This document shows positions 47,667 through 64,000 of a DNA stretch of 64,000 bases, in pieces. How positions within the stretch are numbered: the stretch's first letter is position 1; each line of letters begins with the position of its first letter. The translations under genes were made by a program, and so were the position numbers. The notes under the pieces are model-generated. The model was not told the DNA's origin. It saw nothing but the letters and a program-made list of their open reading frames with translations, and made no database searches. Origin of the DNA: a virus. The DNA lies in the IMG/VR virus record IMGVR_UViG_3300046810_000338, positions 1 to 64,000 of that record. One strand, given 5' to 3'.

Positions 47667-48707
47667 ATGAGTAACAAAGTAAACATCGTTGCTTGCGGTG
47701 GCTTCGGTCAAAACATCATGATCCTTTTCTCGGAGCGTGAAGTCTTCAGACAGCTGCACGAACATCTGAACCTCATCGCCCTCGACACCAGTCCTTCTAA
47801 CCTGAAGCGCTTTGCTGGCAAGCCGATCGACGACGTCGTCACCAAGATCCTGGTCCCCAACGTTAACGGCTCCGGTAAATACCGGGCCGAGAACTACGAA
47901 CAGATCGTTTCCATGACCACCGAACTCGTCAACAGCGACCAGCTGTCCGAGGGCCTGACTATCCTCATCTCGTCGGGGTCCGGTGGTTCGGGTGCAGTAA
48001 CGGCTTCCGAGCTGCAACAGCTTCTGGGCGATCGCGGGCGTCCTGTGTTGGCCATGATGCTGGGCACTGACGAAGATGCGACGGCGGTGGAAAACACTCT
48101 CAAGTCCGTCAAGACCTTGCAACACAAGGCTGGCCAGGGCAAGAAGAACTTCACCTTGTTCTATGGCAGCAACCGCTTCCCAGACCCGAAAGACGAAAAG
48201 AAAACGGTCATCGACGAAGTCAAGGCCGATACGCTGTTCGTCACCAACCTGGAAGACCTGGTCATGGTTGGCCATCCAACCAACGAAGATCTGGACAGCA
48301 AGGACATCTACAACTGGCTGAACTTTCCGATCAAACAAACCGAGCCAGGCACCGTTCGTTTCCTGTCCCTGACCAGCCGCCGCGAGAGCGAAGATTTCCC
48401 GACCACCGGCGAAGCTCCAATCACTGCACTGTCCCTGCTGTCCAAGCGCGGTATCACTCCCCAGTTCCCAGAAGGTGCTGGTTGGACAACTCGCGGCTAT
48501 GTGACCGAAGGCCTGGCGTTCGTTGACGACGTGGTCGAAGTTCAGTACCAGCTCTTCGCCGGCAAATCGGCTAAGCTGACCAACCAGCTGGAACAAACCC
48601 TGAAGACCTTCGCCGGCATTCAGGAAAAGCAAGCCGAAGCTGCGGCGGGCGACAAGCTCAAGACGTCTGAAAAGGACAAAGTGTCCGACAGCGGTACGTT
48701 CCTGTAA
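47667..48707 (+). CDS. phuZ: Tubulin/FtsZ-like cytoskeletal GTPase (PhuZ)
   Basis: Forms GTP-dependent filaments that centre and rotate the phage nucleus and carry capsids in nucleus-forming phages. The 346-residue protein has the tubulin order of motifs: T1 loop ACGGFGQNI (9-17), an aspartate strand-end IALDTSPSN (37-45), the signature T4 loop ISSGSGGSGAVTASE (101-115), a E.ATAVENTLKSVKTL helix (136-151), and EDLDSKDIYNWLNF (207-220), aligning with the LDVHDVANWVRF T7/catalytic segment of phiKZ PhuZ (acidic residues D210, D213). The C-terminal tail is charged. The T4 loop (GSGGSGA) differs from the usual GGGSGS. The ATG at 47667 has GGAG ten bases upstream. Codons are highly biased, pointing to strong expression. 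Confidence 0.87.
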   Translation: MSNKVNIVACGGFGQNIMILFSEREVFRQLHEHLNLIALDTSPSNLKRFAGKPIDDVVTKILVPNVNGSGKYRAENYEQIVSMTTELVNSDQLSEGLTILISSGSGGSGAVTASELQQLLGDRGRPVLAMMLGTDEDATAVENTLKSVKTLQHKAGQGKKNFTLFYGSNRFPDPKDEKKTVIDEVKADTLFVTNLEDLVMVGHPTNEDLDSKDIYNWLNFPIKQTEPGTVRFLSLTSRRESEDFPTTGEAPITALSLLSKRGITPQFPEGAGWTTRGYVTEGLAFVDDVVEVQYQLFAGKSAKLTNQLEQTLKTFAGIQEKQAEAAAGDKLKTSEKDKVSDSGTFL

Positions 48708-56549: not shown

Positions 56550-56978
56550 ATGTCCAGTCCAGCCATTGCGATCATTAACCTAGAAGAAATGATAGCTGAC
56601 TTTAGAAACTATCTCCGAGAAGATTGCGGTCAATCAGAGATGGCAGCACAGTTTCCAGACCATTTCTTGGTCCAAGAATTAGAATACCTTGCCAGAGTGG
56701 CTGTCAACAGAAACCACCTGAATGTTCACCCGCGACTGCGACGTACTCGCCACATCTTCAAAATGTTCGACCCAACCTTTTCTAAAGACCAGATCAATGA
56801 ATGGGCGGATGAAATGTACATGCGGGTACGTGAAGAATTGCCTACCCGTATTGCTGAAGCTGGACATATTTTCCAAACCCAGGCTGTCGGCAAAACGCTG
56901 TATATCAGATTACTTGTCTCCGCCGACGCATTTGGCTACGGCATCGACCCCCACTCGATTATTGACGCGGTGATCTAA
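56550..56978 (+). CDS. Small protein preceding the DNA polymerase gene
   Basis: 142 residues; weak ribosome binding site. Helices (LEEMIADFRNYLRE, HRLVQELEYLARVA-like, QINEWADEMYMRVREEL) and a closing strand IFQTQAVGKTLYIRLLVSAD that follows the diverged-paralogue pattern of 50581-54404. Its stop overlaps the polymerase start (TAATG), so the two are coupled. Confidence 0.68.
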   Translation: MSSPAIAIINLEEMIADFRNYLREDCGQSEMAAQFPDHFLVQELEYLARVAVNRNHLNVHPRLRRTRHIFKMFDPTFSKDQINEWADEMYMRVREELPTRIAEAGHIFQTQAVGKTLYIRLLVSADAFGYGIDPHSIIDAVI

Positions 56979-59239
56979 TGGATCATTTCCTTTTACACCC
57001 GGACCAGTACGTCCGAGATCTAAACGTAGTTGCCACCTACTTTCGCGACAATGCTTTCATGTTGGGCAAACTACGGAACATGCCGTGGGAGCCTGCTGTT
57101 GAGTTTGTTCGCCGCAAGGTGGGTAAAGATGGCGAGTTCCCCATCAAGAATCCACTGGTTACCATCATCGACAAAGATGAGAATGGTGACCGGTTTGTTC
57201 GCAAGGTAGGTTACCTCAACTATCTCAAGAACATCGTGGCGAAAGATCTTATCTGCTCGCCTAGCATGACCACATACCTGCGACCAAAGACCCTGCAAAG
57301 CGAAATGGGTCTGTACATCAACGGCAACCTTGGCCTGCGTAACGAAGCCAAAGAAGAAGGTCTGGTAGCAGAGCTTTCGGCTAACGGCTACGGCGCTCAG
57401 ATTCAGGATCTGATTGGCGACAGGAGTAAAGAAGGCTGGGTTATGCCCCCACTGACCCCTGCCTTGCAAGCTCGACTAGCCGACTTGGAGATCGAGTTCA
57501 AGAAACACGATCAGGTTGCCGGCATCAAGCACAACGAACAGACCTCGCACAAGATCTTCAACAACGGGATCTCTGGCATGCAGACCATTGGGTCTACGCC
57601 GTTTGTGTTGGTATCTGCCCACTCATCGCTGACCAGTGGGTGTCGTTCTGCAACCAGTTATGGTAACGCCACTATTGAGCGCTTTGTAGCCGGCTCAAGA
57701 CATTATTGGTCGCCAGAAGTAGTGATGACCCAGATCACTACGATCGTCACTCATACCGACTATGTCGAGTTTGAAAAGGTGATGACCAAGTACAACCTGA
57801 AATACCCCAACGTGGACGAGATCTACAAACTCATCAAGTACAGCACTGACCTTTATTGGCACAGTGAAGTTGAGATGGAGTTGATCATCGAGTACGTGCA
57901 AACGCTCAATCCATTGGAGCGTGCAGCCTTTGCCTACACAGGCGACATGTACCACCTGCGTAAGTTCAACCCAGAGTTCATGACCGTGTACCTGGACGAG
58001 CTTTCCATGGCGGTTAAGGGCGATCATCCTGATCCACTGACGGCCATCAAGAAAGTTAAAGGCGACCATCGGGCCCTGGCATTGATTCTGTGTGCCGAGG
58101 TTACTGCCGGTAAGTCCATTGACGACTTGAAGAACGAAGGGAACATGGAAGCCCTGTCCATGATCGTGTTGACCTTTGAACACATCATGGCTACTTTGGA
58201 TAAATACGCTGACCTGATCAAAGTGTTCTGGACGACGCTTAACGTGCCGCCTAACATTTCCAGGACGCGTGATATCCGTAGGCGCTCTGTGGTAGGTTCT
58301 GATACTGACTCCTGCCTCTTTGGGGTGCGTGAGTGGGTCAAGTGGAAGAACGGCTACGCCAAGTTCGACCAGCCATGTCAGGCAACCTGGCACACTGTGG
58401 TGTTCATGGCCTGTCAAACCGTGACACACGCATTGGCTTGCTTGTCGGCAGGTATGGGTGTAGAAGGGGATGATGTTAAGAAGCTGGCAATGAAGAACGA
58501 GTTTGCATTCTCTGTCTTCGGTCTGACCAACATCGCCAAACACTACATTGCCTCCATGATTGCAAAAGAAGGCAGTGTGTATAAGAAAGCCAAGAAGGAG
58601 ATCAAAGGAGTTCAGTACAAAGACTCCAACAGCCCACCAGAGATCATCGATGAGTCTAACGACAATATCGTGTCTGTGATGGACCAGATCTACCAACATG
58701 GCTCGTTTGAGATCATGCCGATCATCCGCGGTATGGCTGATACCGAACGGGAAGTTACCGAGTCGATCAAGAAGGGAAATACCAAGTACCTTAAGTCGGC
58801 GTATGTGCGGCCCAAGGAAGACTACAAGAAACCGATGTCGTCTAACTACTTCCATTACGAGCTGTGGCAAAAGGCATTCGCTCACCGAGGCGCGGTGCCT
58901 TCTCTGCCATATCGAGCGGTAAAGATTTCTGTGGACCTGCCTAACAAGACAGCCATTCGCGAGTGGATTGCTAACATTGAGAATCCAACCTGTAAGGCTG
59001 CCCTGGAAGACTTCTACATCCATGGTATTGATGGGGATAAACCAAAAGCTGCAATCACCTCGTTCCTCATGCCGCTTGACATTGTGCAACGTGATGGTAT
59101 CCCGCCAGAGATCTTAGAAGCCGCTGGTATCCGCAGACAGACCTACGCAGCAGTTAGTCCATTCTACCTGTTCGCAGAGACGCTAGGATTGCCTATGGTG
59201 AATAAGAACCTGACAACCATGCTGTCGGATAGTTTGTAA
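56978..59239 (+). CDS. Family B DNA polymerase, C-terminal (motif B and C) subunit
   Basis: 753 residues. Motif B is HNEQTSHKIFNNGISG (185-200; usual KxxxNxxYG) with a long following helix (SSLTSGCRSATSYGNATIERF in segments, 216-236). Motif C is VVGSDTDSCLFG (438-449; xxDTDS), carrying the two catalytic aspartates D442 and D444. Thumb-like helices follow. No motif A (DxxSLYPS), no exonuclease motifs and no N-terminal domain are present, so this is one half of a split polymerase. As I recall, other phiKZ-relatives such as SPN3US encode the polymerase in two genes. The partner is not in this window. Confidence 0.82.
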   Translation: MDHFLLHPDQYVRDLNVVATYFRDNAFMLGKLRNMPWEPAVEFVRRKVGKDGEFPIKNPLVTIIDKDENGDRFVRKVGYLNYLKNIVAKDLICSPSMTTYLRPKTLQSEMGLYINGNLGLRNEAKEEGLVAELSANGYGAQIQDLIGDRSKEGWVMPPLTPALQARLADLEIEFKKHDQVAGIKHNEQTSHKIFNNGISGMQTIGSTPFVLVSAHSSLTSGCRSATSYGNATIERFVAGSRHYWSPEVVMTQITTIVTHTDYVEFEKVMTKYNLKYPNVDEIYKLIKYSTDLYWHSEVEMELIIEYVQTLNPLERAAFAYTGDMYHLRKFNPEFMTVYLDELSMAVKGDHPDPLTAIKKVKGDHRALALILCAEVTAGKSIDDLKNEGNMEALSMIVLTFEHIMATLDKYADLIKVFWTTLNVPPNISRTRDIRRRSVVGSDTDSCLFGVREWVKWKNGYAKFDQPCQATWHTVVFMACQTVTHALACLSAGMGVEGDDVKKLAMKNEFAFSVFGLTNIAKHYIASMIAKEGSVYKKAKKEIKGVQYKDSNSPPEIIDESNDNIVSVMDQIYQHGSFEIMPIIRGMADTEREVTESIKKGNTKYLKSAYVRPKEDYKKPMSSNYFHYELWQKAFAHRGAVPSLPYRAVKISVDLPNKTAIREWIANIENPTCKAALEDFYIHGIDGDKPKAAITSFLMPLDIVQRDGIPPEILEAAGIRRQTYAAVSPFYLFAETLGLPMVNKNLTTMLSDSL

Positions 59240-59876: not shown

Positions 59877-60971
59877 TTATGCGGTGGTTCGCACAACAAG
59901 GTCTTCCAGTTTGTCCTGTACATTAGATCGTACAGCGCTGCCTAATGCTACACTCAAACCTCCATCGTTGATCATTCGAAAGATAACTCGACGAATGTCG
60001 TTGACAGGATATCGCCCGGCTCGACTGGCATCCATCCGCGTCAGTGCCCAGAGGTAACGCAGGGCATTGTAACGGGAGAGTACCAGCGCCCATGTGTTCT
60101 GTCGGGTGGGCAAACCTTCTGGCAACGTCAATACGTCAGCCAAGGTTTCAGACATAGGAACAGGCAGCATCCCTAAGAGAAACTCGAAGGTGACATCGCG
60201 TCCGAGGATTATTTTAGAAATGCTCTCAAGGATACTTTGACCGCCCTGCGTTCTGTTGACATACGACTGACTCAGGCGGTAGTAGACATCGCTGACTGGC
60301 AAGCCCTCAGCGATGGCCGTAATGCGATTCATCATGGCAATGGCGTACTGGCTGGCTTTGAGTTTGGGCAGTACGTGCATGCCTACAAAGATCTGTGGCG
60401 TACGCAGATCTGTTTCACCCGATGCCAGTTGCTCTCTGGTCCACAACGTGTACTGGAGCATCAGCAAACCAAGGTCAATCTCAATCGAGTCCAGACCCAA
60501 GCCAATCCGCGATTCAGCGATTGCCTTGCTGCCCATCGTAAGGTTGGTGGAGTCGTGACTGAGATACCGAATGGCAATGATGTCGGTGTAAGGCGTGTTG
60601 CGGGTAACGCCAAGACGTCTGGGAGATTCGCCCACCAGGTAAATCGTTGTGTTACCCTGATCGCCGATGTGCAGTCTGCCAGCATTGGCGGACGTAGTAA
60701 AGCCAAAGGTTGAGGATATCTCGCGGGTTAGAAAAGCCACGCGTCGATAGATGTCCTCCACAGTTCGATCCAGGTCGTAACCGAGCTTTTGACCCAGCTC
60801 CAAGATAAGGCTTACCATCCAGTGATCTGCTGGCACAAAAGCAATGTCACGGTTGCGCCAATCAATGTAGGTACGGATGTCCAATTCGTAGTTTGTCACG
60901 AACTGGGTAGACGAGCCTACTGGCGTTGGCTTTGCATCTACTCTTAGCTTTCCGCCAATTAGGTCGAACAT
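59877..60971 (-). CDS. Probable virion protein (late strand, 364 residues)
   Basis: Start at the ATG 60971 (MFDLIGGKLRV), with AAGGACA ten bases upstream; a longer in-frame extension to 61118 has no ribosome binding site and reaches across the region shared with the chmA promoter side. Mostly strands and helices, with leucine-rich helices (IEIDLGLLMLQYTLW) and a TFEFLLGMLPVPMSETLADVL segment. Minus-strand location and codon use match the structural genes. No family is recognised. Confidence 0.68.
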   Translation of the reverse strand: MFDLIGGKLRVDAKPTPVGSSTQFVTNYELDIRTYIDWRNRDIAFVPADHWMVSLILELGQKLGYDLDRTVEDIYRRVAFLTREISSTFGFTTSANAGRLHIGDQGNTTIYLVGESPRRLGVTRNTPYTDIIAIRYLSHDSTNLTMGSKAIAESRIGLGLDSIEIDLGLLMLQYTLWTREQLASGETDLRTPQIFVGMHVLPKLKASQYAIAMMNRITAIAEGLPVSDVYYRLSQSYVNRTQGGQSILESISKIILGRDVTFEFLLGMLPVPMSETLADVLTLPEGLPTRQNTWALVLSRYNALRYLWALTRMDASRAGRYPVNDIRRVIFRMINDGGLSVALGSAVRSNVQDKLEDLVVRTTA

Positions 60972-61126: not shown

Positions 61127-61156
61127 TTTTCAGACCTGAATCATAAAGGGAATCAT
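61127..61156 (+). promoter_or_regulatory. Putative early promoter motif of chmA
   Basis: TTTTCAGACCTGAATCATA then AAGGGAATCATGG. A strong copy, 55-85 bases before the ribosome binding site AAGGAG of the chmA candidate. Expression of the shell protein from an early promoter fits the known biology of nucleus-forming phages. Confidence 0.7.
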
Positions 61157-61210
61157 GGTTGGGATCTTGATTTATTTGGCCAAATGTAACATCCCCTAAG
61201 GAGACGGCAC

Positions 61211-63262
61211 ATGCCCGTTAAGAAAACTGGCGATGGTGGAAACATCATGGCGGCGGCTTTGTTAGCTGCCGGTGTGAAGCCTTCCACCGAACCAACCCCG
61301 GCACCTGCCGCAGCGTCTTCCGCTGCTCCAGTTCAGCCGGCAGCAGAATCAGTGGCGCCCACCCCGGCACCAGTGAAACCAGAACCTGTGCAACCAGCGA
61401 CGCAGCAACGCGCTAACCCTGCACCCGTTCAACCAACCCCCGTACAAAAGGATACAGTGCAAATGTCTCAGAACACTCAGGACTTCTCCAACTCCCGTCG
61501 CGACCAGGCCCCTAACGGTCAGTTCACGCTGGAATCTCTCGGTGCTCGCCGCGTCCGTCCAATCGGTCGTTCGGCAGGCTCCGTGCGCGCCAAAGCCCTC
61601 GAAGAGGTGCTGATCAAAGAAATGTCCCGTTCCCTGCAACAGGACACCGTTTCCAAATTCGCTATCCAGACTCTGGACGCCAACTCGCTCGGCCTGCCAG
61701 TGCCTGCCGTTCTGATCATCCAGACCGTTGTTACCCAGGGCATCGACAACCTGTCGGTCTTCTCGATCCTGCTCGACGGCGACGATGTTCGTCTGCCTAA
61801 CCGCATCGACAAGGTCGAAGGCCGCTCCATCGAAACCCCAACCGTCGTCGGCGACATCTACAACAGTCAGGAATACCTGACTCGCATGACCGAACTGGTA
61901 ACCATGGCTCGCCCTGGCCGTCAGCTGAAAATCATCGACGCCGGTTGCATCGTGCTGCCGAAAGACTTCAACCTGGAACAGAGCGATATCCACGGCCTGC
62001 TGCACAAGTCCACGCTGGCCGCCTGGAACGCCATGAACCAGAACGTAGTCCTGGACGATACCCCTGCTTACACCCTGGTCGGCCGTAACAGCAACCAGGA
62101 ACAACTGATCGGTCGCATCAACACCACCGGCGAGAACTACCTCGACGAAGTGGGCATGCCAATCCGTTCCGACTTCGTCCTGGAAATGGACTCGTCCCGC
62201 CATCAAGCGGGCCGTGAATTCCTGACCAGTTCGAGCAACATCGTCAAGGTTGCTGGTTACGTTGAACCGGTTTACACCCAACCGGTCCAAGACCCGAATG
62301 CGCCGAACAACCAGCCGTTCCTGGCTCAGATCGTTCTGACTCGTCTGGCTACTGGCTACGACGCCGCCGACACCGAAATGAACATCCTCAGTCTGGTGAC
62401 TGCGGCGATGATCCAGGTGCAAAACGGCTGGGCGGACATGTTCCGTCCACGCTACAACAAGAAAGATGGCGATGTTGATTACCGCGACATCGGTGCTCTG
62501 GGTTACTGCACCGAGAAAGCTGCCAAGATCGACAGCCGTAGCGACAGCTTCAAGAACAACTTCCCGGCCTTCATGCGCGACTACTTCCGCCTCAATCAAG
62601 GCGTGGTCTTCGCTCTGGACATTCCTGAAGTCGGTCCTGACGTACTGAACCTCGACATCTTCCGCGCTGTGGCCAGCGGCAACGCCAACGCAATCGCTGC
62701 TTTCATCCGTGCCTGCGACAACCTGACCGGTGGCATCTACAGCAAGAAAGCGTCGATCATCGGCGATTTCTCGATGATCATCGATACCGGCAACCGCATC
62801 CACAACGGCTACTACCCAACCGACACCGGCACTGCGGCGATCCGCGATATCCGCGACATCGATCTGCTGGCCGTTGCCAACCTGTACGGCAAAACCAACC
62901 CTGCGGCAATGATGCAGTGGGCTGACTCGTTCTCGCCGAACACCGCTCCTGCGGCTGTACGCATGGCGAACCGCCTGGCCATCATCGACGACGCTCTGAA
63001 CGGTCGTCAGGTTATCACTGGTTACTCGGGCCGTTACTTCATCGGTCCAAAATGGTTCGAAGTGATCACCTCGGCGTGCCGTGAAGCTGGTCTGGTGGTT
63101 AACCCTGCCAACATGGTTCACGGTCTGGGCTCCGGTCTGATCATGGGCGGCTACGACTACTCGCAGTTCACTGCCGGCCAAGCTGGTCAGTCGATCTACG
63201 GTGGCGCTACCGCTGCTGGTCCAGGCGCAGCATTCAACGGCCGTCCTGGCGGTCGTTGGTAA
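61211..63262 (+). CDS. chmA: Candidate nuclear shell protein, chimallin (ChmA)
   Basis: Chimallin forms the single-layer shell that encloses phage DNA and shields it from host nucleases. The 683-residue protein has an N-terminal Ala/Pro-rich disordered arm (about 18-88), a folded body from about 100 with LIKEMSRSLQQ, SVFSILLDGDDVRLPN and RLNQGVVFALDIP, and a glycine-rich tail from about 640 (SQFTAGQAGQ and onward). Codons are the most biased in the window. AAGGAG lies eight bases before the ATG; an internal ATG at residue 85 also has AAAGGAT and would give 599 residues, close to known ChmA lengths. Identification rests on length, arm-body-tail layout, early promoter, and position before an RNA polymerase beta'-like gene, as in phiKZ gp54-gp55. 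A major capsid protein is the alternative. Confidence 0.72.
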   Translation: MPVKKTGDGGNIMAAALLAAGVKPSTEPTPAPAAASSAAPVQPAAESVAPTPAPVKPEPVQPATQQRANPAPVQPTPVQKDTVQMSQNTQDFSNSRRDQAPNGQFTLESLGARRVRPIGRSAGSVRAKALEEVLIKEMSRSLQQDTVSKFAIQTLDANSLGLPVPAVLIIQTVVTQGIDNLSVFSILLDGDDVRLPNRIDKVEGRSIETPTVVGDIYNSQEYLTRMTELVTMARPGRQLKIIDAGCIVLPKDFNLEQSDIHGLLHKSTLAAWNAMNQNVVLDDTPAYTLVGRNSNQEQLIGRINTTGENYLDEVGMPIRSDFVLEMDSSRHQAGREFLTSSSNIVKVAGYVEPVYTQPVQDPNAPNNQPFLAQIVLTRLATGYDAADTEMNILSLVTAAMIQVQNGWADMFRPRYNKKDGDVDYRDIGALGYCTEKAAKIDSRSDSFKNNFPAFMRDYFRLNQGVVFALDIPEVGPDVLNLDIFRAVASGNANAIAAFIRACDNLTGGIYSKKASIIGDFSMIIDTGNRIHNGYYPTDTGTAAIRDIRDIDLLAVANLYGKTNPAAMMQWADSFSPNTAPAAVRMANRLAIIDDALNGRQVITGYSGRYFIGPKWFEVITSACREAGLVVNPANMVHGLGSGLIMGGYDYSQFTAGQAGQSIYGGATAAGPGAAFNGRPGGRW

Positions 63263-63274
63263 GTAATTCGGTAA

Positions 63275-63535
63275 GGCGCTTCGTTTAGACGCAGCGCCAT
63301 GCTGGATGTGAGCAAAGCCCTTTGGGGCAATAGGGTCATGGGATAGATCCCCTAATTCCCAATTGTGGAAAAGTCCTGCTCACCCCTTGTCGGATGCCCG
63401 AAACAAACTGTGTCGTTACACGGAGCTGACTCTCCATCGGGATAAACATCTGGCGGAAGATAGGGTGACACAAATGCTTCCTGACCGTAGGTTGGGAAAA
63501 GATCATGGGTAGGCTGCCCAGTGTTCACCCGGTAT
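63275..63535 (+). ncRNA. Candidate structured RNA after chmA
   Basis: No coding frame fits. Helices visible: GGCGCT/AGCGCC (63275-63280 with 63293-63298), GTGAGCA/TGCTCAC (63308-63314 with 63377-63383) enclosing GCCC-TTTG-GGGC, and GTGT/ACAC with a four-base loop (63410-63421). It is bounded by chmA and a terminator, so it could be a stable 3' RNA of the abundant chmA message or a separate transcript. Confidence 0.4.
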
Positions 63536-63555
63536 AGCCCTCCTTCGGGAGGGCT
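63536..63555 (+). terminator. Hairpin with TTCG loop
   Basis: AGCCCTCC, TTCG, GGAGGGCT, then TTTACTTATGCC. It probably ends the chmA transcript. Confidence 0.75.
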
Positions 63556-63559
63556 TTAC

Positions 63560-63590
63560 TTATGCCCTCACTTACATTTTTTGTTGGAGG
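63560..63590 (+). promoter_or_regulatory. Candidate late promoter/leader of the RNA polymerase gene
   Basis: TTATGCC, nine bases, then TTACATTTTTTG-type sequence and TTGGAGG before the start codon. Full composite: hairpin, TATG, T-rich run, ribosome binding site. Confidence 0.5.
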
Positions 63591-63596
63591 ATTATC

Positions 63597-64000
63597 GTGG
63601 GATTAGTTGCGTATATTCTTGACCATAAACAGGTCATGGAAGATTTGCCGACCCCTCCTCTTATTGTCAATGACCTGAATTTGGACTTGGGTACCAAAGA
63701 AGGTCGCGATCAGTTGGCACTGTATTTGTCCTGTTCGTTCGAGGGCGATACGATTCCCACTATTCCAAGTTGTTTGGGTGGGCACATTACTGGCGAGCGT
63801 TACCTCGGCCGGTACTGTAAAAAGTGTAACACCAAAGTTACTAACCTGGTTGACCGGGCGATTGACAGTGGTGTTTGGATTGCTCCGCCAACTGGAGTAA
63901 AAGGGTTCATTCACCCAGAAGTGTGGAACGTTCTGTCCCCACGGCTGACGCCGCTCAAGTCGTTCTCCATGCTCAGTTGGATCTGCGATCCGTTCTATCC
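63597..64000 (+). CDS. Non-virion RNA polymerase beta'-like subunit (N-terminal part), cut by window edge
   Basis: The frame starts at a GTG with GGAGG six bases upstream and stays open to the edge, giving 134 residues. A zinc-ribbon-like block is visible: C46, C59 in PSCLGGHITG, then C74 and C77 in YLGRYCKKCNTKV. This is the arrangement near the N-terminus of multisubunit RNA polymerase beta', followed by VWIAPPTGVKGFIHPEVWNVL. phiKZ splits its non-virion polymerase over several genes, and as I recall gp55 is the beta' N-terminal part and lies next to chimallin gp54, as here. The rest of the protein lies outside the window. Confidence 0.7.
   Translation, partial: MGLVAYILDHKQVMEDLPTPPLIVNDLNLDLGTKEGRDQLALYLSCSFEGDTIPTIPSCLGGHITGERYLGRYCKKCNTKVTNLVDRAIDSGVWIAPPTGVKGFIHPEVWNVLSPRLTPLKSFSMLSWICDPFY

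Follow-up and report, generated by a model that had tools for sequence, protein, structure and literature searches.

Chimallin (ChmA or PhuN), the nuclear shell protein of nucleus-forming phages, is known from phiKZ (gp54), 201phi2-1 (gp105), PhiPA3 (gp53) and Goslar (gp189), and is represented by the families PF25677 and phrog_4795. In the 201phi2-1 protein, residues 1-47 are dispensable, shell incorporation being not significantly reduced, and residues 48-61 are required for in vitro assembly (PMC9365700). How the shell acquires its special sites (capsid docking, import, export, membrane contact) is a largely open question; it is also poorly understood how mRNA is exported from this nucleus and how the most abundant early message is regulated. 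Two phage ncRNAs were reported in a Grad-seq study of phiKZ, neither of them in the gap between genes 54 and 55; the 3' UTR of PHIKZ298 yields an RNA of about 100 nt that was detected in infected cells (PMC8545117).

The DNA analysed here (the window) comprises bases 1 to 64,000 of a virus record of 228,499 bases. The best explanation of its last part as a whole, to which we attach a probability of roughly 85%, is a chmA-gp55 core in which chmA would give two forms of its product and would be followed by a structured RNA in its 3' UTR.

Genes of the locus and lineage of the phage

The genes on which the assignment of the locus is based are the following:
47667-48707, + strand: PhuZ tubulin homologue (phrog_4733, E=1e-37)
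56978-59239, + strand: divergent family B DNA polymerase (PF20286, E=2.8e-205)
59877-60971, - strand: gene for a phiKZ gp52-like virion protein, a conserved upstream neighbour (phmmer E=1e-14; phrog_3938)
61211-63262, + strand: chmA, chimallin or nuclear shell protein, 683 aa, ATG start
63597-64000 in the window and on to 65087, + strand: non-virion RNA polymerase (nvRNAP) beta' N-terminal subunit, homologue of phiKZ gp55, GTG start

From the letters of the sequence, the initial annotation had taken the 683-residue ORF with extreme codon bias for the nuclear shell gene, and had proposed profile and AlphaFold/Foldseek searches as the check. Both were run and both pointed to chimallin. The protein matched Pfam PF25677 (E=4.5e-49, with a cut-off of 27 bits), the PHROGs nuclear shell protein phrog_4795 (E=1.2e-66) and the PDB sequences 8fne, 7sqq, 8igg and 7sqt; hhalign against the ChmA of 13 named phages gave a probability of 100% over 519 columns (E=3e-66). 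A first AlphaFold model made from five sequences was unusable (pLDDT 33); the one made from an alignment of 59 ChmA sequences of related metagenomic loci reached a pLDDT of 79 and a pTM of 0.76. Foldseek matched the latter to nine chimallin chains from Goslar, 201phi2-1 and PhiPA3 (E from 1e-27 to 1e-31, TM to target 0.80-0.86). The model has the two-domain fold with a GNAT-like C-terminal domain, and weak matches to GNAT toxins were also obtained. The lengths of its N- and C-terminal segments would suit docking (50 residues for the latter), model confidence being low at 636-652 and 664-683. The whole record has 73 predicted genes with 300 codons or more, and of these chmA has the highest codon bias (0.369, against 0.302 for the runner-up); the PhuZ gene ranks third. 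Such a bias would suit any abundant protein, but an HK97 capsid or other abundant structural protein has next to no chance of being the right identification: the significant fold matches are chimallins without exception, the sequence profiles concur, and the best non-chimallin match in the PDB had an E value of 0.14, with no HK97 fold.

The second gene, described beforehand as a beta'-like zinc-ribbon gene, encodes 496 aa in full, with a Cys-rich N-terminus and a NADFDGD motif. Its product matched phrog_2987 (E=1e-30), phiKZ gp55 (phmmer E=1.7e-68) and the phiKZ nvRNAP chain 7ogp_A; the adjacency of phiKZ genes 54 and 55, which had been cited in support, was verified. We regard the identities of both genes as virtually certain.

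The window order (DNA polymerase, inverted gp52-like gene, chmA, gp55) is identical in the named nucleus-forming phages compared, and a ChmA frame lies upstream of gp55 in 78 of 80 related metagenomic gp55 loci. Relatives were recovered from the viral_contigs collection by means of the DNA polymerase, a ChmA alignment and gp55; patterns derived from ChmA only retrieved no relative from it. Judged from its sequence, the locus belongs to a nucleus-forming phage, whose chmA-gp55 core it represents. Of the further Chimalliviridae core genes, the genome has PhuZ, PicA, the remaining nvRNAP subunits, terminase and sheath, with phmmer matches to phiKZ gp68-75 and to the PhiPA3 terminase and sheath; a helicase was found as well. 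The window ChmA is 55-60% identical to that of four metagenomic relatives and 22-28% identical to that of named phages. Because PhuZ and PicA homologues were found and ChmA is less than 30% identical to that of any named phage (maximum about 28%), the phage is, by these sequence comparisons, a new and divergent lineage of Chimalliviridae.

Variations of this arrangement were seen in other loci. Just upstream of the chmA of one close relative (L013:4735-5355) is an ORF that looks, by eye, like a GIY-YIG homing endonuclease and that the window lacks. In five other loci (L094, L111, L114, L126 and L133) ChmA and gp55 are 1.2-1.9 kb apart, and additional genes are therefore inserted there.

Transcription signals and the RNA between chmA and gp55

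The 334-base gap between the two genes and the region upstream of chmA contain these features:
61127-61158, + strand: early-promoter-like motif TTTTCAGACCTGAATCATAAAGGGAATCATGG, with the form CAGACCTRA.TAT at 61131
63263-63309, + strand: hairpin at the start of the 3' UTR, immediately past the chmA stop (MFE fold; counterpart aligned by inspection in L014, L015 and L020)
63308-63383, + strand: extra stem-loop with GTGAGC/GCTCAC boundaries, present in this phage only and absent from four relatives
63386-63567, + strand: conserved structured RNA (model R1)
63536-63567, + strand: terminator, a UUCG hairpin followed by TTTACTTATGCCC

The early promoter motif announced upstream of chmA is indeed there, in a region conserved in relatives. 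Its extended form CAGACCTRA.TAT is found at six further sites, and the seven intergenic + strand copies of the record (13003, 34236, 50538, 61131, 112266, 169665 and 213780) are probably the early promoter set of the phage. At the other end, a strong GC hairpin followed by TTATGCC, and often preceded by CATAA, constitutes a signature common to 26 intergenic sites of the 228-kb record (e.g. 8372, 49045, 59842 and 63560). TTATGCC was considered as a late promoter of the phiKZ TATG type and rejected. It is terminator-associated, since a strong hairpin precedes virtually every intergenic copy, 21 of the 26 share the strand of the gene before them and 10 face an opposing gene. The chmA terminator of Erwinia phage Ea35-70 is likewise trailed by TTTATGCCC.

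The 182-base RNA is very probably a conserved structured element. It is 68-76% identical in the four relatives, as against 50-52% at the third codon positions of chmA, and a coding role is unlikely because its indels are not multiples of three. The structure drawn by hand (a 5' domain, a junction with two hairpins and a candidate pseudoknot, then the terminator hairpin) agrees with the independent RNAalifold consensus. Of its 45 pairs, 21 are changed on both sides, and 97% of the cells can pair, versus 33-51% in slid controls. The claim of structure rests on this covariation and not on folding energy because the z-score, -4.75 with the folding tool, was weaker with a simpler shuffle (-2.0). 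In L020, whose ChmA is 90% identical to that of L014, the 5' domain has nevertheless been lost or swapped.

Within the clade there is one copy of the RNA per genome. Weak full-length matches to R1 (about 15 bits) away from chmA, at L015:2339-2494 (G002:61826-61981) and G003:161595-161749, could be due to chance or represent a second copy. The RNA was not found in the whole genomes of seven named chimalliviruses, nor, beyond terminator-level matches, in 73 further metagenomic loci; the matches in LucasX, L128, L117 and L080 were essentially to the terminator hairpin. No Rfam family reached its gathering score at 63386-63567, and only chance-level partial matches appeared at E<=10. A degenerate RNase P RNA, to which GGAAAAGUCC and GGGUAGGCUGC bear some likeness by eye, was discarded: the CR-I-like part is unconserved in the relatives and there was no match to any Rfam model. 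A pattern used to look for bacterial homologues of the RNA occurred in three actinobacterial MAGs; these occurrences were treated as chance because the surrounding sequence reads as coding (arginyl-tRNA synthetase by inspection).

Since the terminator closes it, the RNA is expected to make up the 3' UTR of the chmA mRNA. There, it would stabilise or regulate a very abundant mRNA, or be released separately. According to the latter proposal it is an independent small RNA, which is produced by processing of the chmA 3' UTR and acts in trans on mRNAs of the host or the phage. The strong covariation, the conserved loops, the terminator end and the precedent of the PHIKZ298 3' UTR RNA (PMC8545117) speak for such a small RNA, while several chimalliviruses have a terminator alone in that gap; we judge it tentatively conceivable, at somewhat below even odds. 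A little less probable still is a cis-acting switch that sets transcriptional read-through past the terminator into gp55: the RNA, terminator included, immediately separates the chmA stop from the gp55 ribosome binding site, but this site is outside the conserved core and no alternative antiterminator pairing was found. Whichever way a 3' UTR element of chmA would act, it is relevant both to mRNA export and to the control of the early message.

The content of the gap varies among the other phages. It holds little beyond a terminator in Noxifer, Eowyn, Ea35-70, RVTF4 and D6, and a long insert in phiKZ, PA1C, PhiPA3, 201phi2-1, Phabio, Viktualia and Psa21, some with annotated small ORFs. In phiKZ the unannotated 54-55 gap (NC_004629 47529-47922; L041:3530-3923) folds strongly. 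It is 83% identical in sequence to that of PA1C, compared with 56% (DNA) and 49% (protein) for chmA, and the RNA shows eight compensated pairs. The PA1C RNA had no Rfam match, and no description of the phiKZ one was found in open-licence papers. The contrasting conservation of gap and chmA, between phiKZ and PA1C as between L014 and L020, could be explained by strong selection, horizontal exchange or both.

The N-terminal arm and a candidate second start in chmA

Three features at the 5' end of chmA are concerned:
61198-61203, + strand: Shine-Dalgarno (SD) sequence AAGGAG of start 1, 7 nt upstream of the ATG; AAGGAGACGG is invariant in five relatives
61241-61270, + strand: N-terminal motif NIMAAALLAA, with a predicted helix at residues 12-19 (motif recurrence; low-confidence model)
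61448-61465, + strand: candidate internal start AAGGA-N10-ATG at Met85

The Ala/Pro-rich arm and the in-frame ATG at residue 85 are both present as first described. The arm had also been thought longer than in known chimallins. This holds against phiKZ-like and most other phages, the stretch ahead of the N-terminal domain being of 106-121 aa in the window clade versus 33-74 in most named phages (the median N-tail among 78 metagenomic ChmA is 61 residues), but not against Ea35-70 (114 residues) or one metagenomic ChmA (143). The long-armed proteins have in common M[AG][DE]A[LF]..A near the N-terminus, a pattern absent from all other predicted proteins of the window genome. A similar M..A[LF]..A is seen at residues 11-15 of three short-tailed ChmA of other lineages (L076, L119 and L125).

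Over the arm of chmA (84 codons), the strong codon optimisation of the remainder is missing, with a switch at Met85. In all five clade members the arm scores below body segments of the same length (z from -6.7 to -16.9), and AAGGA[CT]-N10-ATG, an SD-like arrangement, precedes the internal ATG. The codon change-point was placed at residue 87 in the window (support 87-92, for Met85) and at residue 83 in L013 (for Met82); it was broader in the other three members and not sharp in L014 (support 41-80). No change-point was detected in the ChmA of phiKZ, 201phi2-1, PA1C, Noxifer or Phabio. When ChmA sequences were clustered at 50% identity into 35 lineages, the four with tails of at least 99 residues were exactly the four with a codon shift of LLR >=14, a cut-off picked after inspection of the data; the association is partly mechanical, because the likelihood ratio necessarily increases with the length of an unoptimised tail. 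Besides that of the window, two of the long-tailed lineages, L078 (M124) and L112 (M80), contain an internal ATG in frame that likewise encodes MSQN, preceded by an SD-like signal and with a large codon shift nearby; their ChmA bodies are only 21-25% identical to that of the window. SD-like signals are ahead of all these internal ATGs and of 9 out of 101 (9%) other ATGs in ChmA tails.

From these sequence features we lean towards ChmA being made as a long and a short form. The preference is kept slight because the SD of start 1 is the stronger one and because Ea35-70 has no internal ATG. A less probable account is that the 683-aa protein is the sole product: the arm would be a low-complexity segment under relaxed selection, hence with codons that never became optimised, and the signal before Met85 would simply result from the coding of a conserved peptide, K-D-x-x-x-M. 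AAGGA is naturally spelled by Lys-Asp codons, the best SD belongs to start 1, and in Ea35-70/L127 a codon shift arises where the only nearby candidate is a GTG with a weak signal. Against this account, the tails of phiKZ, 201phi2-1 and PA1C are equally A/P/Q-rich yet show no shift, and the L063 group, the best control, has tails of 85-97 aa and LLR values of 0.3-7.3 only. In the window and L013, moreover, the codon change coincides with the internal ATG, and the arrangement occurs in two distant lineages with differing upstream residues.

If two forms are made, the packaged polymerase would transcribe chmA from the early motif early in infection, and ribosomes would initiate at both ATG1 and ATG85, so that a scarce protein of 683 aa and an abundant one of 599 aa result; the stronger SD of start 1 means that the long form could instead dominate. 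The short form would keep about 33-37 residues of tail, comparable to the 33 of PhiPA3 ChmA and enough for the lattice. Both would co-assemble, and the helix motif of the long form, borne on a flexible linker, would offer a docking or tethering handle at low stoichiometry. We have little confidence in any role, whether for the long form or for the intergenic RNA. If the lattice protein does have a long form as a minor species, the origin of the special shell sites would find a simple answer. We put at even odds the wider proposal that several unrelated lineages make two ChmA from one frame, with the long-form helix as a docking, tethering or membrane handle, and that a 3' UTR RNA is added here and, separately, in phiKZ relatives.

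Comparison with known systems

With known chimallins the window ChmA shares the two-domain fold, a C-terminal segment of about 50 residues, a disordered N-tail and a place ahead of gp55; it differs by an N-tail about twice as long, a codon bias that starts at the internal Met85 and the N-terminal helix motif. The ChmA of Erwinia phages Ea35-70 and vB_EamM_RAY (711 aa) is distinguished by a shift without internal ATG, a tail that is Q-rich rather than A/P-rich and a gene not followed by a long RNA; it resembles that of the window in its long N-tail, its motif (MGDALLQA) and its codon-bias shift. For the second gene, homology to phiKZ gp55 (PDB 7ogp chain A) is full-length, with the NADFDGD motif and the same neighbour; the HNH endonuclease/group I intron that trails the phiKZ gene does not interrupt that of the window. 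As to the RNAs, the phiKZ-type one is about twice as long, with no detectable similarity in sequence or model. Position, strong folding and an end in a UUCG terminator are nonetheless common to both. As phiKZ itself bears a highly conserved, unstudied RNA in its chmA-gp55 gap, laboratory tests are feasible now.
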